Shown piece by piece: positions 14,224-55,428 of a stretch of DNA of 64,000 nt. This DNA is from Mya arenaria (taxonomy: Eukaryota > Mollusca > Bivalvia > Myida > Myidae): assembly GCF_026914265.1 (NCBI RefSeq), contig NC_069125.1:22184966-22248965 (forward strand), given 5' to 3'. The notes under the pieces are model-generated. The model was given only the letters and a program-made list of their open reading frames with translations, searched no databases and had not been told where the DNA came from. Numbering within the stretch: the first letter of the stretch is position 1; each line of letters starts with the position of its first letter. Both the position numbers and the translations under genes were made by a program.

Positions 14224-14343
14224 ATGGCCGCAACAACCACAGAAATATTCTATATTGGCGATCTTTCATTTATTATGGTGTATTTTAACAAAACCAACTG
14301 CCAATTTCAAGACAGAAGACGACTCTGTGGAATCTGCAACCCG
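14224..14343 (+). CDS. Candidate first exon inside the Harbinger-like ends
   Basis: An ATG just inside the left palindromic terminus opens 40 codons (MAATTTEIFYIGDLSFIMVY, then FNKTNCQFQDRRRLCGICNP) that end exactly at a consensus donor GTGAGT (phase 0). The tail has a CxxC pair, but no domain is recognised. The next clear acceptor is at 14,870 (ACATTGCAG), where phase 0 would give a short tail ending in WLTGP. The exon may belong to the surrounding transposon or to a captured host gene. Confidence 0.3.
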
Positions 14344-14870
14344 GTGAGTAAATTAACAAATCGTTAAGACGCCGTTTTGACTAAATTTTCAGGGGACGCA
14401 ACCTCGCGCCAACTGTCAAAATGTTTTGAAAAACAAAATGCTCTTATTTCGATGCATTTCAAGAGTTTTGTTGTGATAAGAACACTGGAATATAGACTGA
14501 AATACTATCCAACCATTAGACTCATGGTATTTGAATTTTACGGCGTTTAAAGTAAAACAGCAAGCTAAAAACAGACTGATTTTATGACAGTGTTTACACT
14601 GATCTGTCATTTTTTAATAACTTGCTTTGACTTATATTTACAAGATTATCATGTCTCTAATAGTGTTCAGAAAGTCTAAATCAACATTGAAGCTTATAAA
14701 TTTAAAAGTTGCCTGGGGATGGGGATGCGGAGGGTGGGATGGGTCATTTTTTAAAAATATCTAGAGCAGCCAGATGGTAAGCATAAGCTCTATTGGTCAC
14801 AGTTGGGAGACTTGTTTGTCCCAAACTACTTTTTTTTTTCAATTTTCTTGCGGTTCTGAAAACATTGCAG
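14344..14870. other. Possible intron
   Basis: Sequence between the GTGAGT donor and the acceptor at 14,870, including a pyrimidine tract at 14,831-14,851. No other feature. Confidence 0.3.
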
Positions 14871-17800
14871 CTAGTAATGGGACTTGGACTGGGGACTCCC
14901 TTAAAGTCATTCTAAAATGCCGTCCAGGCTTTTTTTAATGATGGTTAGGCTGGACGTCATTCATAACAAAATTCAAAAACATGTAAAAACTGTCTATGAA
15001 ATGAAATGTTCTTCATTTGTATTCTGTGGCTTAAGACTGCCAATAAATACCTTAATTCTTATCAATAACCATATCCATTTTGCAAATTCACAAGCTATTT
15101 CTTCAAAAAAGTAATTTAAATACCTGATTTCAGTTGACAGGAGCTTTCTTACTGCCAAAAAGAAAAAAGGTTACACACAACTATACTTTAAGGTTTCAAT
15201 CTGAAGTAGTATTTTTAGTATGGATTACCTTCCCCTAACACTATCATTATCAGTTACCACACTTTTGAACTTAATGAATTTGAAAAACATTTATCGTCAC
15301 ATACAGGATTCAAGATTTATTTACAAACTATTCTATGGGCAATGTGGACAATGCATACTATTATACACATGTATTTAACATAAGACTAAATATTAAAAAA
15401 AAAACATGTATATCAACAGCATTGTTACACTAAGTGAATCAAAATGTTTTATTGTGTAACCTATTAATCAAAATTCGACTTCAACACGACAATCCAAGTT
15501 TACAATAATCAGAGATTTTGCTGACTTATCAATTTATTATGTATATATATATATATATATAGTTTTGCTAAAAAGATGTTTCATGATGATATTTTTATTG
15601 TTGTTTGCTTATTTCCGACTAGAGTGCGTTTTATCGTCAAGCTTAAAGCTTATAGGAAAACAACTAGAGTTAGAATTGTTGTGTGTTTTTTAAAAGAACT
15701 ATATTGGTAAACAGAAGTAACGTTCATGTGTTTAAGGGGTTAAAACATGACAAAGCCGGGACTCTGTGTGAGAATTGGCCTTCATGCTCTTATAGAATAT
15801 GCCTCGGGTTGTTATGGGACACTTGTGCAATCTTCGCCGACTTTACATTTAAAATGTCATCTTATAGAAGGTCATATGCCCAGTTTGTGACGTGAACGCG
15901 CCAGCGGTTCAAAGAGACGCTATAAAATTTAACAAAGCTTATAAAGGCAAACCGGTAATTTTACCTAGTATTCTAATTTCTGTCATACAAAGTAAAAGCA
16001 CACATATAGTATTTATAATGTATGGTCGTTTTTAGACGGAAGGCTAGGTGCGTGTGGGAAAGGGGAAAGAAATGTAGAAATGTTTTTATGTCAAAAGATG
16101 GCAATCAAAAACCTCCAAATAATTGCAGAATTTCAAACCGTCATGGCAGGTTTTTGTCAACATACATACAAATGGTCGTTCACTGGGGAACACCAGAAAA
16201 CTTACTCGCCTACTGGTAGGAAAAAGGTAGGGAGGAGAGAGCTCGTACAATCACCAGTTGGTACCTGAGGTTGCTCTTACCGCAAGTTTGTGACAAGTAG
16301 TACTTGAAAAAGTTTTTTTTGTTGTGTGTCAGAATCTGGATGCTTTAAAGAAACCAAACAAAAGATATTAAGCATACAAAAGTTCAAAGACATCCAAGTG
16401 AGCGCAAATGAGGGGTAAATTACAAGAATAGAAAATAATGATACGAACTGAAAAAAATGCCATGCATGCAAATGAAAATTCTTCCCATACTTTGCATGAT
16501 AACATTCCACAAACTCAGGGTTCCCGCTGGCGATCGCCATTGTCGCCATTTGCGACAAAATCGCAAAAGTGGCGACAACTTTTCAAATTTGGCGAATTTA
16601 TGGCGACAACGATTTTTTTCTAAAATATTTTCTTAAAATGACTTAAGTGGTGACCATGCGGCCTGCATGATAATCGATTCTGTCACTGTCATAAATCAAG
16701 CGCATCTGCTGGTGCGACAACAAAAATTAATCCGATAATTAGGGCAAGCAGTCACGGCCCAGTCAACACCTCGCTAATTATTGCAGAATTTTATTGCTTT
16801 CACGGATAAACAATGACATCCTTTAACTGTTATGTCTCTTATTAGCAAACAATTTCAATATATAGCTCAACAGCCTTGTTATTGCGTTATTATCGTGTTA
16901 GTTTTAAATATGCAAATCGTAGAATTTTATGTTGTCGGAAAGTCACGTGATATGCAAATTTCGTAATGACGTTTACGCGCTAAAAATAGATTTGCTTTCG
17001 GTTTTGTCGCAATTTGTAATTGCTATAAATTCAGCATTCTAAGAGTTTAAAAAGTGTCAAAAAGATTAACAGAAATCAAATAAATAGGATTAAACCCCAT
17101 TTGATAAGGCTTCTAATATGTTGGCTGGAGTAAAGAGTAGGTAGACAAATTTCTATTAGGAAAGTTATGGCCCTAGTTTGACAATGTATATTTCTTTGAG
17201 TTTCCATTTATTTTAAATTTATCTCATAATTTCACAAATGTATTCTTTTATTGTATGCAGGCATTAGACTGAAATCAACATATTGATGTTTATGTCACAT
17301 TTTTTGCAATATTTTTTTATTTATATACTAGTCCATATACAATGAATTTTGTCAACAGAATAACAATTTGCTATTAATATCTTGTGCTTCATGTACAACA
17401 AAATGTTATGATTTGCACGACAATGCAACTTAATGTTTAAGTTTAACTTAATGATATTGCTATTTGATTCATTTTGCAAAAACTAAATGTCTTTATTCCA
17501 ATATACTAACAAAAGTAATAAATGTTTGTAAACACTTCATTCTTAATTTATTTTGAATAATTTACAGGTTTACAATAAGTTGCCTTAACAAAACTACTGC
17601 CAATGACACTACAGCTCGTACTGAGCTGTACTAAAGTAACTAATAGTCATGTGTAACCTTAAGCAGAGAAAAGAAAATGCATTTGGATATTCTCGGCTAC
17701 ATTCGTTAACAAAAACAATGGTGTTTGGTGAATTTTGATGGGTGTTTGAAAATGTATGTTGTTTTAACAATTCGGAACGCGATTATTTTATACAATATAT

Positions 17801-18262
17801 TGCAATTGATGTAAAAAGGATTACTTTTAACAGGTACAGTGTTCTTTTTTTGTTTAAATAGACTAAATTGGAAAATTCTTAATAAATGTGCGACCAAATT
17901 TTGATCGGCATTTTGAACATGTTTACGAATTTTGTTATGAATGACGTCCAGGCTAACCATCATTAAAAAACAAGCCTGGACGGCATTTTAGAATGACTAG
18001 GGACTCCCTGTTCGCAAGTTTGTGCTCTATCAACTTGGCTCACAGGCCCTTAGAACTTAAAATAACTTGCAGTCGAATTGTTCAACCAGCTCTACAAACT
18101 GTTCCTGATAACTTAATTTGCAAACAATCTGACCTTTGTGGGTTAGTACTGGGACACACTCATGAACCGTATAATATTAGTACGGTAAACCTGGGTGCAA
18201 AAGTGGGACAGGTTCAGATCTTGAACCCCACGACTGATGAGCTCAAGCAATGGCTTTATTAA
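14871..18262 (+). pseudogene. Unrecognised exon-like frame split by a Mutator-like insertion
   Basis: An acceptor (CTGAAAACATTGCAG) opens an exon-like stretch at 14,871-14,901 that is interrupted by the element at 14,902-17,999 and resumes at 18,010. Ignoring the insertion and one copy of its target duplication, one frame is open for about 94 codons to a stop at 18,260-18,262. It includes SNGTWTGDSLFASLCSINLA, later SDLCGLVLGHTHEPYNIS and the end DELKQWLY. I do not recognise the family. The insertion adds stops, so the gene is either inactive or uses another acceptor. Phase does not match the exon at 14,224-14,343 in this frame. Confidence 0.35.
14902..17999. mobile_element. Mutator-like (MULE) element, 3.1 kb
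   Basis: Terminal inverted repeats of about 85-90 bp: the left TAAAGTCATTCTAAAATGCC continues GTCCAGGCTTTTTTTAATGA and the right is its near-perfect inverse, ending GGCATTTTAGAATGACTA. The insertion is flanked by the 10-bp direct repeat GGGACTCCCT (14,892-14,901 and 18,000-18,009). Long inverted repeats with 9-11-bp target duplications are the signature of Mutator-like elements (established). The interior has no transposase frame, only short open frames, a (TA)n run near 15,541 and a GGCGATCGCC-rich patch at 16,530. It is a non-autonomous copy. Confidence 0.75.
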
Positions 18263-18734
18263 AACACCTTGCATTTAAAGATAAATGTCAACCATATTTT
18301 AAGCTTCAGAAAGAAAACAGCCTGTTTATAAATAAATAGATTATTCATTTTTTATTTCAGATCTTGACATGGATCCAAGATGCTGGTAACTAGGCGGGAC
18401 AGATTGTTACACAGAACTGCAGGTTTTTGGATGGGTAACTAAATTTCCATATTTCCGGTTTACTTGTGTTATTTATAAGCAAGATAAAAGTAAATACACC
18501 GCAAGAGCGAATCAAGTGGAAATCGTGCATTATGTATGTATTTACAGTCAGTTTGTAGCATTTTTTTTACCAAATCTCAATTTAATACAAACTGTTAAGC
18601 TTATCATGCATATAGTTTGATGCACATTCTATAATTATAATATTAAAGATGTGCAGCATATATATATGGAATGATCCACATCACTGGATACTGTATATAT
18701 GTAACATTGCATGTGAAAATGCATAGCAACAAGT
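18263..18734. other. Spacer with an isolated acceptor-like site
   Basis: After the stop at 18,262 there is AATAAATAG near 18,330 and an acceptor-like TTTTTTATTTCAG at 18,348-18,360. No open frame follows it. It may be the 3' flank of the split exon. Confidence 0.3.
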
Positions 18735-18972
18735 GATATAAGACTGCTGAAAAAATCACATTGCAAGTTTTCATATTTATTTTCAAAAATTGATGTTTTA
18801 TGCATTTTTCAAAAACATTAATTTGCGACAGAAATATGAAAAACTGCGATAAAATCTTTTGTCAGCATTCTTGTATCGCTGGTTTTCAGATGTTTACACA
18901 AAATTTGCTCATTCCTGGACAAAAGATAAAATATTATTAAAACTGTTAATCTGTAAGAGTGCAGCCTTGAGG
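18735..18972. mobile_element. Diverged copy of the TTAAAGCTGCACTC MITE
   Basis: It shares ATAAGACTGCTGA, AAAAATTGATGTTTTATGCA, TTTGCTCATTCC and the end AATCTGTAAGAGTGCAGCC with the element at 50,853-51,219. The left end is eroded, so only the right inverted repeat is easy to see. Confidence 0.65.
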
Positions 18973-19902
18973 AGAACAAATGAAATAAAAAGGTTTTTTT
19001 AATGATTTCTAGCAGATAAGTCTGTTGTCAAAGAACCAAATTCAAGGTATCATTATAGCCGTCTGTCATGTCAGACACAGTACACTAATGTTATTGTATT
19101 ATATTTGTATATGATGTATAGGTCCTAATTATTAGGTCTATAAATCTGGCTTTAAGTGATTTTGAGTTGTGCCCTTTATTTAACTGAGAAAACAACTGAT
19201 GTTTTATTATACATATTTTACAAGTGGCTCTGTGAAATATTCTGTGACTGTTAAAAGGTGTAAATTTGAAATATATTGTATATGTACTCAATTTGTTTTT
19301 ATCATTGTTTTTTTGCTCTTAAATATTTTTGTTTTTCTTTCAGAGACTCAGCGCCATGTCACAAATACTTCAGAACCTAGAATGAAAGTTACCGAAAGAG
19401 CAATAGACTTTCCAATCTCTACAAAATTCATCTTAACTGTTTTTCAAGGTGATACTTGAGACTACCAAAGACTTTTCAAGGACAGAATTCACAAAACAGT
19501 TTATGCCACCATCTCATATCAAAGGATTGTGCTTGAGTTGAACAGCCTTCTAACAGAAACTGCTTCAACACCTTCAATGGATTCATTCTGATTCAGTTTA
19601 CCCTTGCTGTGATCTGAGCAACTATTTACATCAATTCAACATTGTAAATTATTTAAACTTGAAAATTCTGTCTTCGTGCAACTCACATGAATCTATTTAC
19701 TGTGGACTTTGATGTTGACTCTATACAGGAAGAAGAGACCATCTTTATACATGCTGGCATATCTTTTAAAAAGGAAACAAATATTATAACCAACATACTA
19801 CACTGTTATGTCATCCAAGGACTCAGCTACTGACTCAATTTATAAATACTTCAAAGGAAAAATGTCTCTGTCAATGTAATTACTGCTGTGCATAATAAGA
19901 CA
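18973..19902. other. Spacer with one acceptor-supported short frame
   Basis: A strong acceptor (TTTTTGTTTTTCTTTCAG) ends at 19,342. The following frame reads ETQRHVTNTSEPRMKVTERA and closes at 19,459. It could be a small terminal exon or chance. A palindrome around GCATAATAA (19,890-19,915) abuts the next element. Confidence 0.25.
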
Positions 19903-21161
19903 TTTTTTATTATGCACCCCTTCTAAGAAGAGGGGTATATTGCTTTGCACATGTCGGTCTGTCGGTCGGTACCGTCTACCGGCTGTAGACCAAAGCTTGT
20001 CCGAGTGATAACTCAACAATTCCTGGACGTATGGTCATCAAACTTGACATGAAGGTTGGGCCTGACCAGTAGATGATTTAAGGGCTGATCGGGTCAAGGT
20101 CACAGTGACCTTGAATGGTAAATTAATTTTAAAGCTTGTCCGGGTGATAACTCAACAATGCCTAGACCTTTCGTCATCAAACTTGATATGGAAGTTGGGC
20201 CTCACCATTAGATGACCCCTATTGGTTTTGGGGATCATCGAGTCAAAGATCAAGGTCACAGTGACCTTGAATGGTAAAAGGTTGTCCAAGTGATAAATCA
20301 ACAATGCCTGCCCCCATGGCCCTCAAACTTGACTCGGAGGTTAGGCCTTACCAGTAGATGACCCCTATTGATTTTAGGGGTCAAAGGTCAAGGTCAAAGT
20401 GATCTTGAAAGCAAACTCGACAATTCCTGGACCAATCATGCCATTCAGTCTGAATGGTCATCAAACGTGACATAAAGGTTGGGACTGACCAGTAGATGAC
20501 CCCTTTTGACTTTGAGGGTCATCAAGCCAAGGTCAAGGTCACAATAACCTTTAATGCAAAAAAGATAACAAATCCTCTCTCAGGGACATCTCGACAATGC
20601 CTGAACCTATGATCATCAAACTTGACATGGAAGTTGGTCCTGACAAGGAGATGACGCTTATTGATTTTAGGAGTCATTGGGTCAAAGGTCAAGTTCACAG
20701 TGACCTTGAATGCGAAAATGTTTCGAGTGATAACATGACAATGCCTGTACCCATGGCCCTCAAACCTGACTTGGAGTTGTGTCTGGCCTGTAGATGAGTC
20801 CCTTTCATTTTAGGGGTCAAGGGGTCAAACGTCAAGGTCACAGTGACATTGATTAAAAAAGCTTGTCTGTGTGATTACATGTCAATGCCTGAACCCATGT
20901 CCCTCAAACTTGACATTTAGATTTTTGTAGACCAGCTGATGACTCATATGGATTTTGAGGTCATAGAGTCAAAGGTCATGGTCATAACACACTCTATCCT
21001 CACACTTTGAATGGTCAATTTTAAAACTGATTCAACTGCATCCAATGTCAGTGACTAATCAGCTGTCATTTCGGTCCATGCTTATTTCATTCAATTGTTC
21101 ATATAATCCTGACAACATGGCGCTCAGGTGGGGGCATAATGTTTGACAAACATCTCTTGTT
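19903..21161 (-). mobile_element. Pearl/Helentron-like element, family 3, with ~165-bp internal repeats
   Basis: Read on the minus strand it starts AACAAGAGATGTTTGTCAAA (hairpin ATGTTTGTCAAACAT), then TTATGCCCCC. It ends with a hairpin of the CCCCTTCTTAGAAGGGG type and GTGCATAATAAAAAA, the subterminal inverse. The interior has about seven units with AAGCTTGTCCGGGTGATAAC, CATCAAACTTGACATGG, AGATGACCCC and AAGGTCACAGTGACCTTGAA. The TGACCTTGA half-sites recur about every 165 bp. Frames inside it (for example 20,597-20,797) are by-products of the repeat. Confidence 0.75.
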
Positions 21162-22139
21162 GATACTTGGCTCATTTTTTACATGTAGCTGTAACATTTT
21201 GGGCAACTTCTCAATTATTTTGTTTAAGACATTTTCATCTAGCTCATCTAAGCCTAAGTTAGTGTTCATGTTAACTTTTATGACTGCCTGTTTATTGTAC
21301 TTTTTATAAATCATTTTTAATGACTTTCTCAAGAACCATTTGGCTAAGTATGTCTCCTCCTGAAATAGACTAATTCTTTTAGCTCCAGTTGTCTGTCTGT
21401 CCGTCTGTAACAAATTGTGTCTGCTCCATGTCTCTTTAACCTTTTGAAGGATTTGATATAACTTCCCACAAATGTACACCATATTGAGAGGAAGGGTTTA
21501 TTATTACAACTGTTGAGCAGTTTCTGAACTTGACTGTATTATATCTTGCATTTACCTCAAGCTGTTAAGTGAACAATATAACATTGACCAATACAAGGAA
21601 CTTAACCTTCTAGGTCACCATTTTGGAATAAAGTAATACTTAAAGCTCATATTTCCATAAGAATCTGCTCATATACAGTTTAAATAGCTTATACAAGTAT
21701 ATCATTTCAACATAACATCAGATCCTCCACTGTTTTATGTTTAAACTTTGATTTATACATCATGACTTTTTTGAACAAATACCAAACAGCAACTCACAGA
21801 TCTATACTCATTTGGGCAGACTTTTGTAAATCCAAGCATTGTCATTTGATATTCAATGCTTTTGGCAAATTGGGGCATTTTCTGTCATATTAAAATCATT
21901 ATTAACAATAAATCTCCATTTCAATATTCTCATATTTTTGTGCCCATTCTTTGCCAATTAATTGTTTGTCTATTGGTATACATGTATGTTTATTCATACT
22001 GTTTTTCAAAATAACAAATTAATAAAAAGTTTGAAATATTTTATTTGTTCATAACTTATTTAATATAACAAAAAGATGACTGCATTTTGTTTTATTTCAC
22101 ATCATGATCACTCATAGAGCAAGACTTGAAGAAGTATAG
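21162..22139. other. Spacer
   Basis: Unique AT-rich sequence. A 127-codon minus-strand frame (21,099-21,482) begins here and runs into the end of the pearl-like element. It is not recognised and I do not call it a gene. Confidence 0.4.
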
Positions 22140-22215
22140 TGATATAGCCACAAGTGTTTGTCTGACTTTCTCCTACCCAAGAGGGCATGTGTTTGAATCC
22201 GAAGTTGGAAAACAC
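22140..22215 (+). mobile_element. tRNA-like SINE fragment
   Basis: An A-box-like TATAGCCACAAGTGTTTG and a B-box-like GTGTTTGAATCC at 22,189-22,200 lie about 40 bases apart. A and B boxes at this spacing are typical of tRNA-derived SINE heads. The tail is not identifiable. Confidence 0.4.
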
Positions 22216-23583
22216 AGTTCAAAGGTCAGTTGATGTATCCTGATTGCAGGCAAAGAGAAACACTCTATGATGGGCACCTGTAAAACAGAAGATACATAAT
22301 CTTTACTATTATCTATAAAACGTGAGTTGTCAGTAAAGTAAAAGAAATGGTTTAACATTTTTTTCAAATACAATTCTTGATAATATTTCTTGTAAAAGTA
22401 CACATTTATCTTAAGAGATAAAAAACACTACAGTACAAATTTGTTTTGTAAAAGCCATTTCTCAAATTCAAATGAAATGCCTGCCTTGACAGTGATATTT
22501 TGTACTAAGATTACATATATTGGTTAAAAATCGGTAGTTTGCAAGAAGCAGAAGCAAGTATTTTCTTATTTCATACTATGTTATAATGGCAATTGCATCT
22601 GTTTTTGAAAGACTGGGTCTAATAACACGAAAAAATATAATAATAATCCTACTCCCCGATTACTGTTTGCAATAGTTGGTTTAATCATACACTGAGGTAT
22701 ACAGTCATACCCAATGCTTTTCAGTGCTGCAACACTGCATCTCAGATGACTGAGCTTTTCTTTCAAAAGATTGCCTGCAATGAAAAACTTAATAAATCAT
22801 ATCAATAACAAACAAAGAGGATACTGTTATTGACAATAGGTCTACCTATTTGTAATGACAAATATCATTTGTATACTGGTTAGTATATAGAATTGTATAT
22901 TAAAACATATTTGAGTGTGTAAACTTACATACGTTAAGGAAACAGTTCAAATAATATTCGCTAACTAAACTCTTTCTTAAATTTGTACTTCCGGGGTTTT
23001 CAATCGAATAGAACAAAGAATTAACGAACGTAATAGTACATTTACCTTTTGGGATGTGATTATTTAACATGTTAACAGCATAACAATTATTATACACAAT
23101 ACAAGCGATAAGAAATGAATATAGTTGGTATCGAAATGTGTCATGGCCTGAAAGCATTGCAATGTGACACAGGAAACAGCTGTTTAAACGGGTCAAACTA
23201 TGTCGTAGCAACCGTAGTCGACAAAACGTTACCACCCACTATATTTATTAAAATAAATAGTAAATGTCTATTTTGATTATTCGAAAAGCGAAGCAGATCA
23301 AATCACTATTTGCGAATTTGTTTCAGTATACTCACATCTACGGTTTGTTTACATTTTCGTCCGATCCTTCCCCATTTTGAAGAGTAATTACGTACGAAAG
23401 CGTTAATAAAACGGTCGCAGTAATCTTCGTATGTAACTTCGTACGAAGTGATCGCTTGCTTAACATGCATTCATAAAAAAATAGTCATGCATGACGAAAG
23501 TTGGCTCTTGAAATAACCAGACTGTCAATAGTTGATAACAACGACACGATTTTGAAACCAGGCAGCTCTCCATGTATATTTTT
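22216..23583. other. Spacer with minus-strand exon-like signals
   Basis: On the minus strand, acceptor TTTTTCATTGCAG (about 22,780) precedes an open stretch starting NLLKEKLSHLRCSVAALKS (22,581-22,779). A 111-codon frame lies at 22,900-23,235. Neither is recognised and no consistent chain could be built. The stretch ends in the right palindromic terminus (23,330-23,461). Confidence 0.25.
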
Positions 23584-23621
23584 CTGCACATACACCAGAG
23601 GCACCGTCCCTCAGCACTTTC

Positions 23622-26216
23622 AGTGCTTTGATTATATTGTGTTCTGTAACTCGCCGATACGAAAATAATTGCTTTTTTGTACAAATTCAATTGCGTTATT
23701 AAACGCAAAACGCAGCTTATTTGAACTATATTAACCGCCTAATATAGGTTATAAACTCATTACAACGCAATTTATAGCAAGCTTATAAATATGCAGAGCG
23801 CTTACTAGGTATTGTCGATGTAAATGTTAATGTAAGTTAGGTCGGTGACCACCGCAGTTCAAACCGCTCTGGGGTTGATACGCCCGTGCGCGCATTAATT
23901 CGCCAAAAGTTAAAAATGTTATGTCGATCTGCCGATGCGATTTCCGAGATACGGTTATAAAAGTCTGCAGGCCTAGCGGCCTACAGCTTGAAAATTGTTC
24001 ATTCGGTGAAAAAGTGTTCCTTCGTGAGTTTCCGTAAAAATAGAACGTTTACTACTGCTTCAATTCAAACAGTGCAGACATTATTATAATGAATGAAATG
24101 GGTTCTAAAATTTTGTGTATGAATAGAGGAAGGTCTAATTTACATGACTGCCACAAAGGCACACAAATCGAAATGCTAAAAAGAGAGTGATTACAATCGA
24201 AACCTCAAAAATCGGCAATATTATGTCAGTATCTTGGCAGTTGCTATGGAGATTTCCCAAAATGCAAAGCAGAAGTAGCTCATTTAAGATGGCTGCCCCC
24301 ATACATAACGACTTGCTCTTTAATAATTATTCGAAAAAAGGGGTACATATAAATTGTGGCTGAATAAAAGTGAGTTAGTTTTATGTTTTAAACTATGGTT
24401 AAAACTTTAAAGGAAAATATGGATGCTGTCATAACATATTACAAAAGAAACAACTTTGTTTACATGGTAAACATTGAAAATACAAACATGTGCGAATAAT
24501 GAAGATTCGTTGAAAATTCTGGGATATTACAATATATATATATAGTGCTGTAAAGAAAACTATTATTATTGCCTCTAATTACTCTACTAGCATATAGGCA
24601 ATATAACACGAGGACAATGCATTTAATAACTTAAATGTTATATACAATAAACGAAATATAAATTAGATAAATAAATCCAATCCTCAACTTGTATGAACGA
24701 AGTTTTCACTAAATGAAGAATTTTAATAAAATTCTCCCTGGATAGTGATGATGTTGCATTATGTGTTGAATGAAACAATATGAATTATGCATTGCTTCTA
24801 TTGAAATAAATCGTTGAGGTATGATATCGTTTTGATTAAATATCAAACAATGTTTTCTTTTATTAACTTCAATAATTCAAAACTTGCCTAAAATTATAAA
24901 ACATAATTATGATGTTGGATACTTCACTTTTTCCAAAAATGACGTGCAGACTGATAAAGAAACAATATCAAGTAAATGGACGAACATTTCATACATAAAA
25001 AGCCACGTAAGTTACTAGGAAACGGCAGCCGTTTTACATGTAAGCTTACATAAATAGAATAGTTCATTTTTCCTAAACTTATTGTACTAAAACCTTAAAA
25101 TGACATTTTCTTAACTTCTGATATATTCATTCTCATAAAATAATTGTGTTGTTTAGACAGTTTTTGTGAATAATAGGTGCATACATTTAAACCACACTAA
25201 CTAGCTAAGAGAGGCCATTTTGTAATAAATTATTTTTTATCAATAGTATTAATGTTAATCTTCATAAATGTTTTAAATGAAATTTTTCAAAAATAAGTGT
25301 AGCATCCGTTCTCAAAATGAACTAGATACAAAAAGTTTGAGGTGAATTAGAAGTATATTTATTAGAAAAATATCTCAACTTTTGTTGATTTTGCTTTACT
25401 AGGAGATTTGCCTTTTTTATCTGACTTTGTTATATTTTACTTTTAACAGATACAATTTGCAACACGAAAGTGTTTATATAAATGGCTGTATATTATTTGA
25501 AGTATTTTAATTGTTAAAAAAGCAATATAAAATGTTGATACCATGTTGATATCCCCAGTGTTTGAATTACAATTATACATTAACTATGGAAGTGGTATGA
25601 GACTACTGCATCACTTACTGTCTTTAATGTGGCTTAAAATAAATCATAAACATTTTACATGATTTATCACAATTCTGATTCTTTATGCATCCCGGTATTT
25701 ACGCAAGTAGCTTAATTATCAGTCAATATATATGGTCAGAAAATAGGAAAACAACAAATTGGCTCTGAGCGCTCTTTTTTTAAAGACAGAACAAGATATA
25801 AAGTTGAAACGTTTATTGAACATACTTCTTCATCATAATTATTTGATTTAACATGAACTACGGTGTCCAACGCTAGAAGATGTAAGTTATTTACCATTGA
25901 TTCGGATCACTCGGTTAATCAGCAATTTTAGAACAAAGGAAAACAATTATTAATTGTTTTATAAATTGGGTTGTACATAACTCTTGGGTTACAGCGGTTA
26001 CTTCCCTTACTTATTTCTTATAACAATGCGATTTGTTCTATCGTGAAATAATTCGGTCCTATACCATTGTCTGAGGTCTTATGTCCTGAAACAATTTTCA
26101 ATTTTCGCATTGGACTGAATTTTCATGGCATTATAAGGCGGTTTAGTCTTTCAAGACAGTTGGCAGCTGTCATATTCAATTATGGATTGACATCTTGGCA
26201 GATACTTTAAGTTACT
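23622..26216. other. AT-rich spacer, mostly nothing
   Basis: 2.6 kb without a frame of note. It contains a (TA)n patch at 24,532-24,543. The final 60 bases probably belong to the eroded Harbinger relic that follows. Confidence 0.4.
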
Positions 26217-31494: not shown

Positions 31495-31604
31495 AAGAAA
31501 TTGGTTTCCAACACATTTCAATTTACAAAATCGTCCACCCGGAAACAAATATGTAAAACTATGTTAAACAAGAGTGCCAACGCCTAACATAGGCCTAAAA
31601 AAAA

Positions 31605-33617: not shown

Positions 33618-33778
33618 TAAAGATTTATTCACGAGATATTTTAATAAAACAAAATAGAGTTGAAGAAGAAATGTTTAAACTTTTTTTTAAAATAATCTTT
33701 AAATATTATACATAACTATGTTGCTAATACTATGTATAATGACATGTCCATTGTCTAACATCAGTCTTGACCAAACAC

Positions 33779-34930: not shown

Positions 34931-37264
34931 ATTAAGGGGCCGAAATGTCTCTATTGAAACTCACTAAGGGGCCGAAACGTCTCGAGTCATTTAAATTAAG
35001 GGGACGAAATGGCAGGGCCGAAACGTCTTAGGGGCCGATTTGGTAGTAGGCCGATTTGGTAAGGGGCCGATTTGTCTTGCCGGTCATTGTAGCAACGGTT
35101 CTGGTAATCTATATCGCCTAGGCGTATGCAGTGAGGATTTATAACGAGATTTCGAGCGTCTAAACGACACGGTGCCGGTGCGTGAAATTTACTTGATCAT
35201 GAAAATCACAAAAATATCTCGAACATACGATGCCGACATTTTTGGACATAAAAACTTTTGAGTCGGCGGTTTAAATAGAGGGTCGGTCGGGTAACCGGAA
35301 ACAAACATATTTATTTTTTAGGCCATATTAATTAAAAGCCGCTGAGACATTATCAGTGGGTTTTTATATATATATGGTTTACCTGGTATACATTGAACTC
35401 ATTCTCAAAGTTGCTTGGAATAGCATCATAAAAAGAAAAGCAGACTTCCAGGAGCCGACACCAATCGTGTAAAACGTAATATTTAATTCAGCATACTTTA
35501 CAGCACCTTGGACCAATATCAAGTGATATTTTACTCTCAGACAACACGTACAAACATATCCAATTTCCATACGTGTATGAAGTTTTTAAGTTTTAGATGA
35601 CAGTGAATTGTATCCATAGGTTTCTCTAAATACTTACCAGAGCTTACAATATCCACGTTTAAGTAGACTTTAAAATGCCTTATCGCATTATTCCCTGCGA
35701 ATGACGCGGGAAAACATTCTAGATACAACAAGGCATTCTTTTCTATTTTACTACGATTCACTCATGAAACCTTTTGTTTTCCTGTCTGAATGTAGGTCTC
35801 CGGATTTCACTTATATTTATTGCTAAAATGGTTACTTTATTATCCGAAATTATTCGCTTTATTTTGAGACATGCGATGTTTCATTGATATTTATCGAATA
35901 AAACATTCAATCACTTATTACGATTTAGATATTATAGTTCTTTCAGTTTAATAATCCTTTTGGCGCACAAAAATAGTTTTATCCGAAGATTCAGCCACTT
36001 GTATGTCACCTCGCTTTGACTGTCATTTATTACAAGATCTTAAGTTGTATAACCGATATTTTTTCTTCCCCTGTTCACTCAAGTAATAACGAATTGAATT
36101 AAATCGCTTCAAGCCTTTTGTATTCTTTTTTCATTTAACAGTTTTAGTTTTTATACCTAAATCAGCGATAATGAAAGTTATTGACCTTGGAGTAGCAGTC
36201 AACAGTTACATTGCGTTAGACGCGTATTGACAATCCCCTACTGAGTGATATCCCTTTTCATGCAAAGAAAATATGTGCCGCCGCGTAAGGCAACTAACTT
36301 GATTTGAACTTATTGTATCTTATTTTTTGAATACTTGATAAAGTGCGTGTATTAATGTAATATTGTATTTAAGTTTCACGAAAGAACGTTTAGTTTACGA
36401 TAAATAAAAAAAAATACGTAAAAGAAAATTTTAACCGTTTTGAATGCCGTCACCTGATTATTATCATGTAACACACGAAAGGGTTAACACAATTATGAAT
36501 GATGCTTTAAGAATAAACACTCGCCACCTCCCCTAATTCATCTGTTTCTGGTATTATCAAATAATCTTAACAAAAAAATCGTTCTGCAGTTGATGCTACT
36601 GTCCTTTGAATGATAGGTTCTAGTTCTTTTCAGAGTCTTCTTCCGCCGCATTAATATGTACCTCAATTTCAACAGGATTCAGGAAAGATTGAGGAGGACA
36701 CAGGAGGCAGGAATGAGGAGTGTTGGGGACGCTTTAAAATGAGTTTCTAGTAGTGTTTTCCGGGCATTAGGAATACGTAAGGGTTACAATGTGCGCACCC
36801 CTTTAACAAATATACTTGTGTTGAATTAAAGTCAGTGTCCGGCGACATATCGTTGATTGATCTGCATTAATGATGGGTCGAAACGAGAGAGAAATTTCTC
36901 TATAGTCGTGCGTCAAATGTAGCTACTTATTCTTGTCCTGGAGGAATCTGTTAAATCATTTACGAGTATGGCATACCTGTGCGTATTATTTCTACACATG
37001 TATATGCTGTGAGCAAACGTTTCGGGATCGGAAAACATTTTTCTTGCATTTGAAGAAAAGACTTGGTACAAACCCGCGCGGTTAATGATGCTACTATAAA
37101 ATCAAGTATCATGAAGTTTTCAACCTCAGTGAGTGTTTGGATGACAAGTAGTCAAGTCGTACATTAGTGCTAAAAATGGATCTATTGGATACACGAAAAT
37201 ATAAGATGAGGAGAACATTGAAAAGCAGTGCGTCTCGAAAAAGACATGACCCTCTCTCCAAAAT

Positions 37265-45864: not shown

Positions 45865-47674
45865 TGGGCACTTTTGCCCTTTCGTGTTTTGCTGGCTTCT
45901 TTCATTCTTTGTAATTCCAAGTCAATCAAAGTCCCTTTAGGTTTCGACTGACAGTCGAGCATGCTTTTGGCGATAGCTGTCGTCTGTTCAGCCGGGAGAA
46001 CCATCTGTATATAAATTTTGGAGATAGGGTATTTTTCGAGACGCACTGCTTTTCAATGTTCTCCTCATCTTATATTTCCGTGTATCCAATAGATCCATTT
46101 TTAGTACTAATGTACGACTTGACTACTTGTCTTCCAAACACTCACTGAGGTTGAAAACTTTATGATACTTGATTTTATAGTAGCATCATTAACCGCGCGG
46201 GTTTGTACCAAGTCTTTTCTTCAAATGCAAGAAAAATGTTTTCCGATCCTGAAACGTTTGCTCACAGCATATACATGTGTAGAAATAATACGCGCAGACC
46301 ATGCCATACTCGTAAATGATTTAACAGATTCCTCCAGGACAAGAATAAGTAGCTACATTTGACGCACGACTATAGAGAAATTTCTCTCTCGTTTCGTTCC
46401 ATCATTAATGCAGATCAATCAACGATATGTCACCGGACACTGACTTTAATTCAACACAAGTATATTTGTTAAAGGGGTGCGCACATTGTAACCCTTACGT
46501 ATTCCTAATGCCCGGAAAACACTACTAGAAACTCATTTTAAAGCCTCCTCAACACTCCTCATTCCTGCCTCCTGTGTCCTCCTCAATCTTTCCTGCATCC
46601 TGTTGAAACTGAGGTACATATTAATGCGGCGGAAGAAGACTCTGAAAAGAACTAGAACCTATCATTCAAAGGACAGTAGCATCAACTGCAGAACGATTTT
46701 TTTGTTAAGATTATTTGATAATACCAGAAACAGATGAATTAGGGGAGGTGGCGAGTGTTTATTCTTAAAGCATCATTCATAATTGTGTTAACCCTTTCGT
46801 GTGTTACATGATAATAATCAGGTTACGGCATTCAAAACAGTTAACATTTTCTTTTACGTATTTTTTTTATTAATCGTAAACTAAGCGTTCTTTCGTGAAA
46901 CTTAAATACAATATTACATAAATACGCGCATTTATTAAGTTATCAAAAAATAAGATACAATAAGTTCAAATCAAGTTAGTTGTCTTACGCGGCGGCACAT
47001 ATTTTCTTTGCAGGAAAAGGGATATCACTCAGTAGGGGATTGTCAATACGCGTCTAACGCAATTTTAACTGTTGACTGCTACTCCAAGGTCAATTATTTT
47101 CATTATCGCTGATTTAGGTATAATCAAAGCACTGAAAGTGCTGATGAACGGTGACATTGTTCGGTCTGCTGCAAGTATAGAACTAAGTCCTTTCTCTTAT
47201 AAACACAAAAAATCATCGGAACCTAATCTTGAATATAGAAGCATAATTTGAACACTCTTAGGTGAGGACAATTAGACAATGCTTCAAACCAAATATCTAA
47301 GCTTGATATTTATTTTCCAAACATAATTATTCATCTTAATGCTGTAGCTTTGAAAAGTTGATGAAAAGGTCACCTAGCAATATCATCGTTAATGTTTGTT
47401 TGCAGAACTACTTCAAAATTTCATTCCAGTTGCATAACAAATACGCCAAAAGGACACAATCATGATAACTGAAGCATAACATTAACATATGTTTTTTAAA
47501 ACAGTATACATGGTCCAAAGTTCAATGTTGTACTCAAAATTAAAAACGTAGGCCTTAGCTGAAGCAACTGTGCACAAGATGATCAATCTGCAAGAAAAAC
47601 AATTGTCGAAAACTGACATAAACTTGGTATTAATGTGTACAATGCATTGAATCTTACTAACTGAAGTACCACAT

Positions 47675-47950
47675 AGTTTACAATTTATTTTAGCTAAGCA
47701 GTGATTTTGTATTTTTCCATTAAAAATATTACTGGGTATGTCTACGAAAGTATATAGCTTAAAAATACCACCCGTTTGGAGTAAGCCTTTGTAGCACAGC
47801 GGATACAACACTGGACTGCTATTTTTTTTTACATTTTGGTCCTTTCTCTATAATTATGATTCAAAGCTTAACACATTCTATTAAATAATTGTCCTGAGTT
47901 GCGTTACAGGAAAAAAAAATTGGTGCCAATCTGGTGTACAGTCCCTTTAA
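47675..47950 (-). mobile_element. Second copy of the TTAAAGGG-ended MITE, inverted
   Basis: It shares TATTACTGGGTATGTCTAC, GTAGCACAGCGGATACAACA, CTATTAAATAATTGTCCTGA and CCAATCTGGTGTACAGTCCC TTTAA with 9107-9775 in inverse order. Internal parts are deleted. Here the tRNA-like A-box block is on the plus strand. Confidence 0.75.
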
Positions 47951-48890
47951 AGTAACCCGAGAACAACAATGATGAATTGTTTTCCAAACATAGCAACATT
48001 TTATTGCAGAGGCCACAAAAATAGATAAAGTAAGTGAAAATGTCACAATCATGGTAAGCCAAACACAACATTCATAATTATTCTTAAAGCAGTACATTTT
48101 ATGAAAGAGGGTCAAAAGGTCACAGTAAAGAAGATCTGAGGACAACATTGATAATTGTTTTGCAAAACTTACTGAACTTTCGTTGCAGTACCTTAGAATA
48201 GAAAAGATGGTCAAACGGTAATTATCAAGGTTATCCAAGTACAAAATTGATATTTGTTTTAAAAGTTATACACATGGTCTAAAAAAATTTGCTGTTGCTT
48301 CAAAAATAGAATGTTTGTCAAAAATCATATTCTATGTCATCAAAGCACAACATTGCTTTTTGTTTTGAAAACTGTACTAAAAAACTTTCATTGAAGTAGC
48401 TTAAAAATAGGAAAGTATGTCGAAAGGACAACGTTATGAAAGCACAATTTTGATTTTTGAGTTCGAATCAATGGTCTTAATTTCATGGCTGAAGCTTCAA
48501 ATTTTAATGTGTGTCAAAAGGCCACAATCTAGGTCATCAAAAGACAACATTAAATATTGTTTTCAAAACTGTCTAAAATGCTATAGCTCTAAAAAATAAT
48601 TAGGTAAAAAAGGTCCCAGTCAGGGTCATCCTAGAACGACATATATAAATATATGTTTGTTTTCAAAACAGTACTGATGTCAAGTTTTCATCGATGAAGC
48701 TTTAAAAAACATATTCAACAACTTCAGGAAATGTGTAAATAACTTAGCCTTTGTCGATCTTACTAACATATTTCCTTGACGAGTTGTATAATACAGTCTA
48801 TTATATGATGACGAGTTTTAGTATCTTTTTATCAAAATATTCTTTAAGTAAAGACAACAAAAACAACTTACCTGTTTTACTTCTCTAGTA
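47951..48890. other. Interior of element X with degenerate repeats
   Basis: Diffuse repeats of about 130-140 bp (AAAGGTCACA, ACAACATTGAT-TTGTTTT-CAAAACT, TTGAAGTAGCTTAAAAATAG) cover this stretch. It looks like an old minisatellite of another pearl-like element. No gene. Confidence 0.45.
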
Positions 48891-49634
48891 AACAAGAGCT
48901 GTCACAGAGACTGCGCGCTCGACTATTACGTCGCTGTTCAGTGTAAGGATTAAAAAGTTTTGGCGAAACATGGATCACTGTAAAATTAGATTAGATTTCA
49001 ATGCAATACATTATGTATTTGTTGAGATATTAACATGAATGTGGTTACATGGAAAATTTTAAGTCCAATACTTGAAACTTAAACAGTATTTCTAAGTTGC
49101 ATAATAAAGGGGCAAAAATGATAAAATATAAAAGATAGAGTTATCTTTCCTGATTATTTAAGAAGGTTGAATAGTTGGGAGCCTGTGTATAAAGTTTCAA
49201 TGCAATACATGATGCATTTGAATTTATATGTCAAATAATAAAGCAAAACCTTAACTAGAATTTTTAAGTCGAATAATAAAGGGTCATTATTTGCATTAAA
49301 TGCAAACTAGAGTTATCTTACTTGGTTAATTAGGAAGGTTGGATGGTTGAGTACTATTGTATAAAATCTTAATGCAATACATCAAGTAGTTGCTGAGATA
49401 TCAACCTATGTGTGCTTACATGCAAAACCTTAACCAGAATTTCAAAGTCAAATAATAAAGGCCCATTTTTTGCATTAAATTCAAATAAGTGTTATCTAAC
49501 TTCATTAATTTAGTAGGTTAGATAGTTGGGAATACATATCTAAAGTTTCAATGCAAAACCTTAACCAAGGTGTGACACCGACGCTTGGGTGAGTAGTATA
49601 GCTCTCCATATTCTTCGAATAGTCGAGCTAAAAA
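48891..49634 (+). mobile_element. Pearl/Helentron-like element, family 1, complete ends
   Basis: 5' AACAAGAGCTGTCACAGAGA then CTGCGCGCTCGACTATT; 3' hairpin TATTCTTCGAATA overlapping AATAGTCGAGC, then TAAAAA. The 5' GCTCGACTATT and 3' AATAGTCGAGC are exact inverses. Three to four internal units of about 178 bp match those at 38.5-39.5 kb. This is the clearest full-length member of the family. Confidence 0.85.
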
Positions 49635-50852
49635 CAGGATACATGTACCATTAAAGCGATGCTATTCTCTGGACTACAAGCATGCATTGCAAAAATTTGT
49701 ATTAGGAAAAAATTCAAACCAAAGAATCATGCGATCATTCTCACACTGTTTGTAAGAAGAATACATATAAAGGTGATATCAAGTACAGCAGAAAGGAATA
49801 ACAACAAAAAACTAAACTCTTTTTAATTGTGACATCATAATGGTCAGTGGTAAGATGAAGTCATAGATTACTATGTGTTCATGACGTCATTTCCTATTTA
49901 AACCAATATATAGTACCCCATTCAGTACCCAACGTGATTAAAAGTTTTTATCAGGAGATAACATTTTCCTCTTAAGAATTGGTTGGAAATTTAATTTTAC
50001 ATTTTTTTCATCACAATGAATACAAAATGACAAATTGTCATTTGAAAAAAACATTCTTGTCTATGAATTTGTTTAAAAACATGTGGAAGGATACTATAAG
50101 TTCCATGGTCAGTAGGTAACCCGCGATATGGGATATTCAATGTAAAGGAAACCATATTGCGGTGGAGTGAAGCTCGAACCTAAATATGGATTCTTCCCCC
50201 CCATATTTCCAATACTATGTCACCTACTAACCAGGTAATGTAAGTATAACGTTGACAACCTGTTCTCCTGTTTAAATGTTTTATTTATTCATTGAAATAT
50301 TCATCAAATCCGAATAAAGACGCCATTTTGTTGTAATTTAAATTTGGAAAATGGAAAAATGTGGAGTCACCGCGTGACCTGTCCTTGACCAACAGCGGTG
50401 TTTCATAAATATTGGGAGTCGTGACATTTTTTTGACCAATAGAAATAGACCAATGTTATATTGATATCCCCATGTGTATTTAGGAGAGAAAAATGTGTGA
50501 TGGCTGTATTTAACTGGATATAAAGTATACAAGTAAATAAAAAAACACGAAAAAAAATAAAATCTTTATGAATAAACATTATTCAGAATGGGTGGAGTGA
50601 TTGATGATAATGAGCCCTTCTTAATCATTAAGCTAGTTACTTTAGGTCATTTAATTGACTTAGAAAACAACCTCATTGTCTAATTCATTGTCGACGTAAA
50701 ATCTTATGCAGGGATTGTGCATCAGGTGAGTGACAGTAGGCTGAGGTGAAACCCAACTTGAAGAATGAAATTGTTAATGATTAAGGATAGCACTTCATTT
50801 ATACCTATCTGAAATTTCATTTGCTTAATTGTAGGTTTGTTCTATTTTTGTT
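49635..50852. other. Interior of element X, nothing recognised
   Basis: AT-rich, with no frame longer than about 64 codons and no repeat ends found. Confidence 0.4.
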
Positions 50853-51219
50853 GTTAAAGCTGCACTCACACAGATTGAAAGTATTGAAAACTTCTTTATT
50901 TTTTGTTTCCGAACGAGCCATTTTTTTGCGAAAATCCATGGAAACCAGTAATATAAGACTGCTGACAAAAAATCAGATCATAGATTCTTAAACTTAAGTT
51001 CAAAAATTGATGTTTTATGCATTTTTTTTAACCGTTAGTATCAGTTTAAGCCATTAAGCATCAATTTTTGAACGTAAATATGAAAATCTAAGATCTGATA
51101 TCTTATCAGATATCTTATTATTGGTTTGCACATATATATTTACGCAATAATTTGCTCTTTCCAAAACAAAAAATAAAAGAAGCTGTTAAAATAGTCAATC
51201 TGTGGGAGTGCAGCTTTAA
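50853..51219. mobile_element. MITE with TTAAAGCTGCACTC ends
   Basis: The left TTAAAGCTGCACTCACACAG continues ATTGA, and the right is the inverse TCAATCTGTGGGAGTGCAGC then TTTAA. The centre has further inverted segments (CAAAAATTGATG/CATCAATTTTTG). TTAA at both extremes could be the target site, as in TTAA-specific superfamilies. A diverged copy is at 18,735-18,972. Confidence 0.85.
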
Positions 51220-53105
51220 GGGCTCATTATTTCTTAGTCTAAACAAGTTGATGTTCAAATTAAGAGTCTTCTTATCTATAAACATCTATTAAAACAAGTT
51301 TTTAAAAAAGAGGGTGTTTTGAAAATATCAAAATTGAATTAAGGAAAAGAATTTCATATTTATCAGGTTTGAACTGACATTTTCAAATGCTTTACCCTTT
51401 GGAACAAGCCATGTGGTAACTAAGAAATATGTCAAGTCCATGATATACGCATTAGCATAAAATTAATCAAGCACAATTTTGATCACAATTCACACACTGT
51501 GCAAGCATGTCAAAACATGGCCATGTTAAAATTGCAAAATTTCCTTCTGATTGAAAAAAAAATCACAGACTGTCAGACTAAATTACTGACACTCCTTTTC
51601 TATAAAAGTTCATGCTGTCTTCAGAAATAAATTGAAATAACGAATAAGGGTAATGTAACATTCTGCCAAAGGGGGAAGTGCATTCATAGTATGTGGATGT
51701 CCTGGATTAAATATGCAAATTAACATACCAGGTCTCTGTTTGGAGGGAGAATATATGTAGATAAAAGGGTTATGCATGATTTTCTCTGAAGGGATCTGTT
51801 GGCCTTGAACATTTCAGTAATATGGCTTGTTTTTATTGATCTTTTTTAGACATACATGTTTGATGCTTGATAGGCATACCAATGAGAATGATTTGCCCAA
51901 AATTGCAACAGAACAATTTCAGGGGCGTAGCCAGCGTTACACACTTACGCACATGCGTAACATCAATTTGAAAAATGAAAATAATGGTCAAACATGGCAT
52001 CAAAGTCGAGGGTTATGTTTTGACATCAGAATAAAACCTTAAAGGGTAGATCAGCTATAGAAAGCATTGTTTCTCTGTGCTAGATAGCTCCTACAGCGTT
52101 AAAAATCACTTAAAAAAAATCCGTGGGGAGCAGCCCCCCCCCCCCCGAACCTCCTACGGTTACAGGGATTCCCCATCCCATAGCCTCTCACATTTAGTAC
52201 AGCCTGGCTACACCCTTGAATTTAATTAATTGCCAAAAAATGTCAAAATCCTGTCTACATTTTAGTATTTTGATTTTTTTTTTCATTGAGTAAGACCCTT
52301 TTGAGCTATTTAAACACTGTAAATATCCGTAAAGCTATATGCATGTATACAATATCGATATCCCCAGCATGCACAATTAAGTTATGCATTATCTTTTACC
52401 ATTGTTAATTTTAACATACAAGAAGATACTGTATTTTACACTTACCTAAAAAATGTGTAGACAATGATAGAGAATAATAAGTGGCAGATTTCAAATCAAG
52501 GCATTTAAGGCTCACCAGGGGCTTAGCACCATCCAGATAATACAGACAGGCTAGCTCCATGTCCTAATGCCAGGATCATTTATAGTAACTTTATCTTGTT
52601 GAAAAGTTTAATACTTGACTAGTCCAAATAAACAGCAACTTCAGAGTCTTGGACAAGTTTTGTTTTGGCGAGTCTTCATGTCCACATCCAACTTTTTCTC
52701 CTAGCTAAGAATGACATTTCAAGCACTAAGTTTATTTAGTTCAAATAATTGTACATTGAATGATTTTTTACCATTTTTGATATGGCACGTCACATAGTGA
52801 ACACATCTATAATTTTCGACTTGATGTATATTGAGCTTCAAGATGACGCGCATCAGCTAGATAGGTCCAAAATGGCAATGCTATGTTGACAGAAGCTGAT
52901 CGGAATTTAAGTGTTTAATGAAACACTTGTGTAATTATACACACTTGTGTGATTAAACAATGATATTGGCTCAAGATAAATTATGTGAAACTTTCGTGTT
53001 CCTATTTTGCAATGCAATGTTTAATATTGAAGTGTTGTTACAGTTGAAGAAAATATTGTATTATGGTAGGAATCAGATCAACATGGCATAAAGGGAACCA
53101 AATTA
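51220..53105. other. Interior of element X, nothing recognised
   Basis: Includes a C-run at 52,134-52,146 and TCAGGGGCGTAGCCAGCGTT at 51,920-51,939, similar to the common GGGGCGTAGCCAG start of invertebrate repeats. No gene supported. Confidence 0.4.
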
Positions 53106-53457
53106 TGCACTGGTCAGTCAATTGTAACCATGCCCACCCCCCCACCCCCCCACCCCCAGATCTTGGGAATAGCGGGGACTTGGACTTTCAGTACAGCCAA
53201 CACCGGCTAGATTCCATGCCATGCGGAGACGTACAGTTGGTAAAATCCCCACCAAAGTCCCTGCACCCCGGGGACTCTAGGCAAGGCCAATTACCCGCTG
53301 TATTTAAAACAGACAAAACCACCGCATTTACCCGGCAATGTGTAGTTGGACTAGGCAATGTGGGGCCACCTGCCAAGCATAAACACGACCCATTTCACCC
53401 GCTATTCCCCGTATATCCCCGGACCTGGGTTGGCCGTGGTAACAATTGACTGGTGCA
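53106..53457. mobile_element. PIF/Harbinger-type MITE with TTA target duplication
   Basis: The left TGCACTGGTCAGTCAATTGT continues AACCATGCCCACC. The right is the near inverse, reading GGTTGGCCGTGGTAACAATT then GACTGGTGCA. TTA flanks both sides (53,103-53,105 and 53,458-53,460). A 3-bp TWA duplication is characteristic of PIF/Harbinger. The GC-rich interior makes long chance frames on both strands. Confidence 0.85.
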
Positions 53458-53460
53458 TTA

Positions 53461-54360
53461 ATATCACAATTTTAACGAAAATCTGAAGTACCTACTGTAC
53501 TGTAATGTATGTTTTATGCAGAAAGATGACAACTGTGACGCAGATGCAAGTTGTTTCGAGTTATTTATATTATCATTATTTTTCACATCAATATTTGCAA
53601 CAATTATTGGCACGAAGCAAAACGACGTCATTGTTTTTTGGATTTTCACTAAGTTTGTATTTCCGTGTTTTACTGCAACTTACTTTTAGTCGTGGGTGAC
53701 CTTTCACCAGATGTATATCAGTCATTAATTGTATTGCGTTAAATTCAGCCAATTTGACCACAAGGTGATGATGTTATTCAATTAATTATTTTTAATTCTC
53801 CTTTTTAGCACTAACAATTCATTGTAAAACTCGAGTGTGATGCCTTAAATCCGATTTGACACCTGAAATTCCACGGACATGTGTTGATTCATCCGCCATC
53901 TTGGATAAACCGGGTCATTTTGGGTCATGCCATTAACACATCATATTTTGATGATTCTACTTAAAGAGTCTACAGTATGATATATATTTTAAAATATTTC
54001 GATAGTTCAAAGTATTTAATTAATTATGTTTAGCGACAATGTACTTCAGTATTCAGTTCGAAACATTTACGGATTTATTTTTATCGATACAGTAAAATGG
54101 CCGAGGAGTTCCGAATGCACTTTTGTAGCAATGTAGTGGAACTATTTCCATGTAGTAGTCAATATTGGCGAAATGATTTATCAATATAAAAATTTGATTT
54201 CAGTACCAATTGTCAATAAATTATACATGACCCACTTCTCTCACTATTCGCCCAGACATTTTAGAAAAAAACTATGTAACAGCCACTTTAAATCAGCTGT
54301 GTATTCAAAACAATGATGAGAACTATTTACTGAGCGCACTGGCGTTCTTTGGCTTGTAGT
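53461..54360. other. Right interior of element X
   Basis: AT-rich. Contains TCCGCCATCTTGGATAAACC and AGTAAAATGGCCGAGG, which are promoter-like (YY1-like) words but have no adjacent frame or splice sites. Confidence 0.35.
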
Positions 54361-55428
54361 TTGCTCGGCTGGTGTGCCTACTTAGTATGGGCCCTGAGGG
54401 GCACCGTCCAAAAACTAAAACTGTTAAATGAAAAAAGGATACAAAAGGCTTGAAGCGATTTAATTCAATTCGTTATTACTTGAGTGAACAGGAGAAGAAA
54501 AAAATATCGGTTATACAACTTAAGATCTTGTAATAAATGACAGTCAAAGCGAGGTGACATACAAGTGGCTGAATCTTCGGATAAAACTATTTTTGTGCGC
54601 CAAAAGGATTATTAAACTGAAAGTACTATAGTATCTAAATCGTAATAAGTGATTGAATGTTTTATTCGATAAATATCAATTAAACATCGCATGTCTCAAA
54701 ATAAAGCGAATAATTTCGGATAATAAAGTAACCATTTTAGCAATAAATATAAGTGAAATCCGGAGACCTACATTCAGACAGGAAAACAAAAGGTTTAATG
54801 AGTGAATCGTAGTAAAAAAAGAAAAGAATGCCTTGTTGTATCTAGAATGTTTTCCTGCGTCATTCGCAGGGAAAATGCGATAAGGCATTTCAAAGTCTAC
54901 GTAAACGGGGATATTGTAAGCTCTGGTAAGTATTTAGAGAAACCTTGTATATATGGATACAATTCACTTAACTGTCATCTAAAAAAAACTTCATACACGT
55001 ATGGAAATTGGATATGTTTGTACGTGTTGTCTGAGAGTAAAATATCACTTGATATTGGTCCAAGGTGTAAAGTATGCTGAATTTAATATTACGTTTTACA
55101 CGATTGGTATCGGCTCCTGGAAGTCTGCTTTTCTTTTTATGATGTTATTCCAAGCAATTTTGAGAATGAGTTTAATGTATACCAGGTAAACCATATATAT
55201 GAAACCCACTGATAATGTCTCAGCGGCTTTTAATTAATATGTTAGGCGTTGGCACTCTTGTTTAAAATAATTTTACATATTTGTTTCCGGGTGGACGATT
55301 TTGTAAATTGAAATGTGTTGGAAACCAATTTCTTCTAAATTATTTTTTTTAAAACTGAATGACATCATTGAAGATCATTCATCATATTCATTAAGCCATT
55401 CAAAAGGAATTGATTATATAAGTTTATA

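Follow-up and report, generated by a model that had tools for sequence, protein, structure and literature searches.

Helitron2 transposons carry hairpins at both ends together with asymmetric terminal inverted repeats (ATIRs), the 5' ATIR lying terminally within its hairpin and the 3' ATIR preceding its hairpin, at 20-30 bp from the terminus. According to the same portions of Bao and Jurka (2013; PMC3627910), some Helitron2 families insert after TTTT without a duplication, and other elements of this kind carry duplications of 7-19 bp. Helentrons and HINEs, in the sections of Thomas et al. (2014; PMC4067079) used here, are marked by subterminal inverted repeats, a 3' palindrome, a T-run target, and the lack of a duplication, the sharing of flanking Ts between element and host being called unclear. 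The same sections describe the Helentron partners of HINEs as encoding Rep, helicase, and endonuclease, with the RGSPH motif as diagnostic of Helentrons. In the Pacific oyster, Cg_HINE elements possess central repeats of mostly 140-180 bp and a TT target without duplication, as described in part of PMC7492417. A stretch of 64,000 nucleotides from the bivalve Mya arenaria (assembly GCF_026914265.1, contig NC_069125.1, positions 22,184,966 to 22,248,965 of the forward strand; hereafter the window) contains element X, a 7,288-bp insertion within one arm of a large inverted repeat. X is very probably a non-autonomous transposon of the Helitron2/Helentron type, a HINE in Helentron nomenclature, an assignment that does not separate Helentron from Helitron2 in the strict sense. 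The X family is new and its kind is known; a puzzling insertion is thereby placed with high confidence in a known class, adding a family with well-defined boundaries from an animal genome.

Element X represents a real, dispersed, and repeated family of mobile elements. Across the 1.216-Gb genome, the left-end pattern of X matched 250 times and the right-end pattern 144 times with at most 2 mismatches, and the reversed pattern of each matched nowhere. Positions are known for 110 of the left ends and 105 of the right ends, and 66 of the 110 placed left ends are joined by a right end in the correct order within 25 kb, at a median distance of about 7.36 kb, with 31 of the 66 falling at 7.0-7.6 kb. 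A first-pass annotation, made from the letters of the window alone, had allowed that no other genomic copy might share both ends, a prospect that the search for both ends in order and distance excludes with these 66 paired places. Searching the genome with the whole of X, with the best 23 of 24,899 first-look candidates scored, recovered seven copies besides that of the window, at 96-97% identity and at full or nearly full length (one from base 11). The X family has moved as one unit, interior included. Twenty of 39 unpaired 5' ends were fetched, at about 1 kb each; 14 are X-like inside for at least 670 bp, and six (L086, L087, L096, L097, L101, and L102) diverge or rearrange before that point.

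The same copies bear on the suggestion that X is no mobile unit but a block formed by chance or as a composite of segmental duplication and nested repeats. Other repeats do lie within its interior, some copies have common flanks and are segmental duplicates, and the part of X present in one unit of an 8.29-kb tandem array is limited to the 3' 217 bp. At most copies, however, the same two ends stand in unrelated flanks, near end-to-end copies sit on several contigs, and empty sites exist for five insertion events, all of which makes a composite origin extremely improbable. The array itself (G000:C11:48161913-48195103), in which five left ends recur at intervals of about 8.29 kb, was considered as a rolling-circle concatemer of X and rejected, since the single unit read carries just the 3' 217 bp and the region at C11:48.16-48.20 Mb is therefore a tandem array of other DNA. 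That unit bears two different 3' ends of X kind.

The boundaries first assigned to the insertion, 47123-54409, prove right within a base or two. The junctions of other copies and the empty sites give 47122-54409 as the unit, and positions 47122-47123 (minus-strand TT) fit element or host equally. The uninterrupted site noticed in the left copy at about 36,150 is borne out by BLAST, which joins the arms there: 35324-36152 aligns with 55241-54410 and 36151-37266 with 47123-46013, the two alignments overlapping by 2 bases (36151-36152, TT). Insertion takes place after TTTTT, as the T-run at 47 distinct 5' flanks, a few of them segmental duplicates of one another, consists of exactly five T in 38, six in 4, seven in 1, four in 1, and two in 3.

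The joined flanks of 11 X copies were further used to seek insertion-free paralogues, which were found for 4 of the 11 sites when the best 40 of 2,992 candidates were scored. Thirteen paralogues were read at these four sites, and ten of them keep TTTTT intact exactly at the junction, with no additional base. The differing paralogues read TTTT with the next base also missing (L115), TTTT (L119), and TTGTT (L120), and these altered T-runs may have arisen in the paralogue at a later time. Together with the window site, five insertion events are covered by 14 insertion-free sequences, 11 of which have TTTTT, and in those 11, apart from the GGACGG...TTGA core, the insertion adds TT and nothing else. 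The annotation's report of no clear target duplication is in keeping with this, the run being already present and the net gain being TT only. These insertion-free sites also bear on the question of flanking-T sharing raised in the cited sections of PMC4067079.

The gain of TT would also suit a cut-and-paste or tyrosine-recombinase element from an undescribed superfamily that makes a 2-bp TT duplication, as TT stands at both junctions of X and once in the empty site, and follows TTGA in 17/17 X-type 3' flanks. Because every one of the 47 5' flanks ends in TT, a duplicated TT is indistinguishable from one borne by the element; the observed target is a T-run with no ordinary target duplication. 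Such an origin is nevertheless judged highly unlikely, given that the inverted repeats of X are asymmetric, terminal at one end and 24 nt inside at the other, that two Rep-PIF1 loci are followed, on their own strand, by a near-identical 3' terminus (2/32 positions changed), and that the Helitron2/Helentron anatomy fits X.

That anatomy is seen most clearly in the termini (Table 1). With 3 changes tolerated in the search pattern, 28 distinct 5' ends were collected; with 2 tolerated, 17 distinct X-type 3' ends. The 5' ATIR is flush with the 5' terminus (0 bp), and the 3' ATIR stops 24 nt short of the 3' terminus. Almost all of the 5' junctions that were read show, on the minus strand, a T-run followed by GGACGGTGCCCCTCAGGGCCCGTCC, and the 3' junctions except that of the window read CACCGTCC-ATC-AGCACTTTCAGTGCT-TTGATT, after which the next base varies (A 12, G 3, C 3, and T 1 in 19 X-type flanks, L079 and L082 counted). 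Folded as single-strand DNA, the family 5' end reaches -11.4 kcal/mol (z -4.67, equalled by 0/200 shuffles); for the family 3' end the value is -4.7 kcal/mol (z -3.83, equalled by 1/200 shuffles). In the window copy, the 3' end folds with z -4.42 (0/200 shuffles as good), and the 5' hairpin has decayed with the loss of its outer stem (z -0.51; 58/200 shuffles as good). The hairpin ends and ACGGTG/CACCGT tips reported at the outset are confirmed and are found again in other copies, and the X family displays hairpins at both ends with ATIRs placed as in Helitron2. The 3' hairpin, being common to the Helitron1 and Helitron2 kinds, would be consistent with a canonical Helitron (Helitron1) whose ends have diverged; yet X starts with GGACGG rather than TC and ends with TTGATT rather than CTRR, a departure from the Helitron rule that had been correctly noticed. 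Its target lies after TTTTT instead of between A and T, and it possesses a 5' hairpin and ATIRs in addition, leaving a Helitron1 identity with next to no probability.

In relation to described systems, X resembles Helitron2, as presented in the portions of PMC3627910 cited above, in its hairpins at both ends, its ATIR placement, and its T-run target without duplication. The annotation's statement that no standard superfamily has hairpin ends without a duplication is contradicted by Helitron2 itself (PMC3627910, in part) and by the similar Helentrons and HINEs (PMC4067079, in part). Unlike Helitron2, X is 7.3 kb long with no recognised gene, and the nearest coding element in this genome has an endonuclease-like piece, whereas Helitron2 lacks an endonuclease according to the sections of PMC4067079 considered here. 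The likeness to Helentrons and HINEs extends to the ends, the T-run target, the lack of duplication, and the RGSPH motif, which was found at 25 of the 30 Rep loci fetched, the remaining 5 giving no motif match. The mite HINEs in those sections are simple deletion derivatives of their partner; in contrast, the interior of X barely matches the 30 Rep loci, with one 53-bp match (L042) and, in the flanks of two others, short repeat-like stretches of at most 240 bp. Cg_HINE, as far as the excerpted text of PMC7492417 goes, shows mollusc HINEs with ends and target similar to those of X, which differs in that its degenerate ~180-bp units number only about three and occupy little of its 7.3 kb. X exhibits the structural features of the class that were tested, and the earlier idea of a possibly undescribed non-autonomous family is partly sustained, the family being new and its kind familiar. 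Literature linking Helitron and Mya arenaria offered nothing on the X family, as judged by title or the start of the abstract.

Table 1. Coordinates of element X, its termini, and related features (window positions, except for the C10 element).
Feature	Position	Strand	Basis or remark
Element X, full-length, non-autonomous, very probably of Helitron2/Helentron type	47122..54409 (5' end at 54409, 3' end at 47122)	-	junctions of other copies, empty sites, 7 near-full-length copies
Host target run TTTTT at 5' junction	54410..54414	-	already in insertion-free left arm, 36148-36152
5' ATIR GGACGGTG	54402..54409	-	identical at 28/28 distinct 5' ends
5' hairpin, family form GGACGGTGCCCCTCAGGGCCCGTCC	54385..54409	-	outer stem decayed in window copy
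3' ATIR	47146..47153	-	CACCGTTC in window copy, CACCGTCC in other X 3' ends
3' hairpin AGCACTTTCAGTGCT	47128..47142	-	fold; present in 17/17 distinct X-type 3' ends
3' terminus TTGATT, the last TT being element or duplicated host TT	47122..47127	-	17/17 distinct X-type 3' flanks
Insertion-free site in left arm, TTTTT then ATACC	36148..36152	+	sequence and BLAST
Degenerate ~180-bp repeats and tail inside X	48985..49634		related to array 38534-39560
Element Y, second element of X kind, 9.9 kb	13690..23633	+	ends common with X; interior differs
C10 element, 14.6 kb	5' end 53764696; Rep 53769789; PIF1 53771682; endonuclease-like within 53772900-53774000; 3' end 53779250	all on one strand

The Rep/helicase partner envisaged by the first-pass annotation was the right thing to seek, and it was approached through a third type of end, termed TACC, whose 3' end TACCGTCC occurs in 55 exact copies. 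A profile search of the genome for Rep (PF14214) gave 85 hits, of which 70 were tested against this type; two are followed on their own strand by a TACC-type end, at distances of 8.2 and 9.5 kb, where 0.03 would be expected. At both loci, on C10 and C4, PIF1 matches adjoin Rep between Rep and the 3' end, and the C4 Rep reading frame matches PF14214 at 4.3e-29. The C10 element combines Rep, PIF1, and an endonuclease-like piece with nearly the 3' end of X, 2/32 positions being different and accompanied by a matching ATIR change. Its 5' end follows TTTTT and folds into a hairpin (z -2.52; 3/200 shuffles as good).

Other candidate partners were rejected. The C5:8830169 family contains Rep, PIF1, and endonuclease (PF03372 at 35.5 bits, above the cut-off), and no X-like end was found in the 5.5 kb downstream; the 2422-aa Rep family (C7, C2) has a 3' boundary, drawn from two copies, without the X hairpin signal; and C6:27654931 is separated from an X end by 11 kb and stands on the wrong strand. 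No Rep domain was seen by eye in six frames of 7 of the 20 unpaired 5' ends and 3 extended stretches, which the genome-wide Rep search covers as well; one extended stretch beyond an unpaired X 5' end enters other coding DNA.

Several points weigh against a Helitron2/Helentron-type X moved by such a coding element. None of the 66 X pairs encloses a Rep hit (80 of the 85 hits tested, the other 5 being neighbouring pieces of tested ones), and no element combining the exact ends of X with a Rep hit was found in this comparison; as only 110/250 left and 105/144 right X ends are placed, a partner may sit among the remainder. The C10 copy has an in-frame stop, its endonuclease match (PF03372, E 5.4e-4) falls below the Pfam cut-off, and a stop lies inside the C4 PIF1 match. 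The TT gain might be a 2-bp duplication, and the T-run differs in 3/14 insertion-free sequences.

No Rep hit falls within the 66 X pairs, and the mobiliser of X is therefore inferred, as are its trans-mobilisation, strand polarity, and ATIR pairing. A Rep-PIF1 helicase protein, probably with an attached endonuclease, would be supplied in trans, would nick the 5' end of X beside GGACGGTG, and would peel off one strand. The 3' signal, composed of ATIR, hairpin, and TTGATT, would terminate transfer, with ATIR-ATIR pairing at the expense of the 5' hairpin marking the stop, a role for the pairing of the two ATIRs proposed by Bao and Jurka (PMC3627910, in part). The single strand would then join the host immediately after TTTTT, which would leave no ordinary target duplication.

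Relatives of X with similar ends allow the pairing of ATIRs to be explored. The terminal 25 bp on the 5' side of element Y match X at 96% and the terminal 31 bp on the 3' side at 94%; beyond the ends, the two elements have just one interior repeat in common. The Y-type 3' end is present 67 times without mismatch, and 38 of these copies have a partner among the 82 Y-type 5' ends at a distance of no more than 20 kb. Among 70 of the 85 Rep hits, none was found within 10 kb downstream of Y 5' ends, and none near Y-type 3' ends among the matches listed. It is tentatively proposed, with the balance of judgement leaning somewhat towards doubt, that several otherwise unrelated Helentron families in one genome, some of them 7-10 kb and with no recognised gene, have common ends of about 25 bp (5') and 31 bp (3'), and that their ATIRs form a matched pair, a changed 3' TACCGTCC going with a correspondingly changed 5' GGACGGTA.

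If the two ATIRs must match, GGACGGTA is the 5' end to be expected for the TACC type. A search with TTTTTGGACGGTAC returned 97 matches and its reversed control 93, which means that the pattern taken alone does no better than chance. It nonetheless precedes 17/55 TACC-type ends on their own strand at a distance of at most 16 kb, compared with 0 on the opposite strand, 0 downstream, and 0.035 expected, and it is found upstream of 0/67 Y-type ends. The proposal is weakened by the 38/55 TACC-type ends for which the 16-kb range holds no exact 5' counterpart, and by mismatched ends, TTTTTGGACGGTAC lying upstream of 1/110 X-type ends and an X-type 5' end upstream of 1/55 TACC-type ends. Six TACC-type 3' ends that were read fall into two groups alike in the last 51-77 bp only, and since the 17 matched pairs come from few families, they amount to one or two compensatory changes rather than seventeen. 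If true, the end-pairing of ATIRs would act as a recognition or termination code of rolling-circle transposition, by which one coding element moves many passengers, and matched ATIR variants within one genome make the pairing hypothesis testable.

Further ends of this kind occur in the window. A third 5' end of X kind, TTTTTGAACGGGGGCCCTTCAGGGCCACGTTC, lies at 44655 (-), with no matching 3' end found on that strand within 30 kb, and a lone 3' end, AGCACTATGAGTGCTTTGATT, with no obvious ATIR, lies at 62859 (+). Inside X, a palindromic repeat at 50854-51219 has relatives in Y (18712-18972) and at L125 and L126, two loci nearly identical to each other, and the ~180-bp repeat arrays at 48985-49634 (inside X) and 38534-39560 (outside X) have a common 82-bp tail at 94% identity. 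The large inverted repeat around X spans 29598-37577 and 45577-56390, its aligned pieces being 95-98% identical, and presumably resembles large Polinton-like elements. Within it, the fragment 55429-55986 (-) gives a weak match to the rve integrase core (E 3.6e-6, below the cut-off). Two arrays of one 68-bp repeat, at 25-2410 and 10741-12103, stand in opposite orientation and are about 90% identical.

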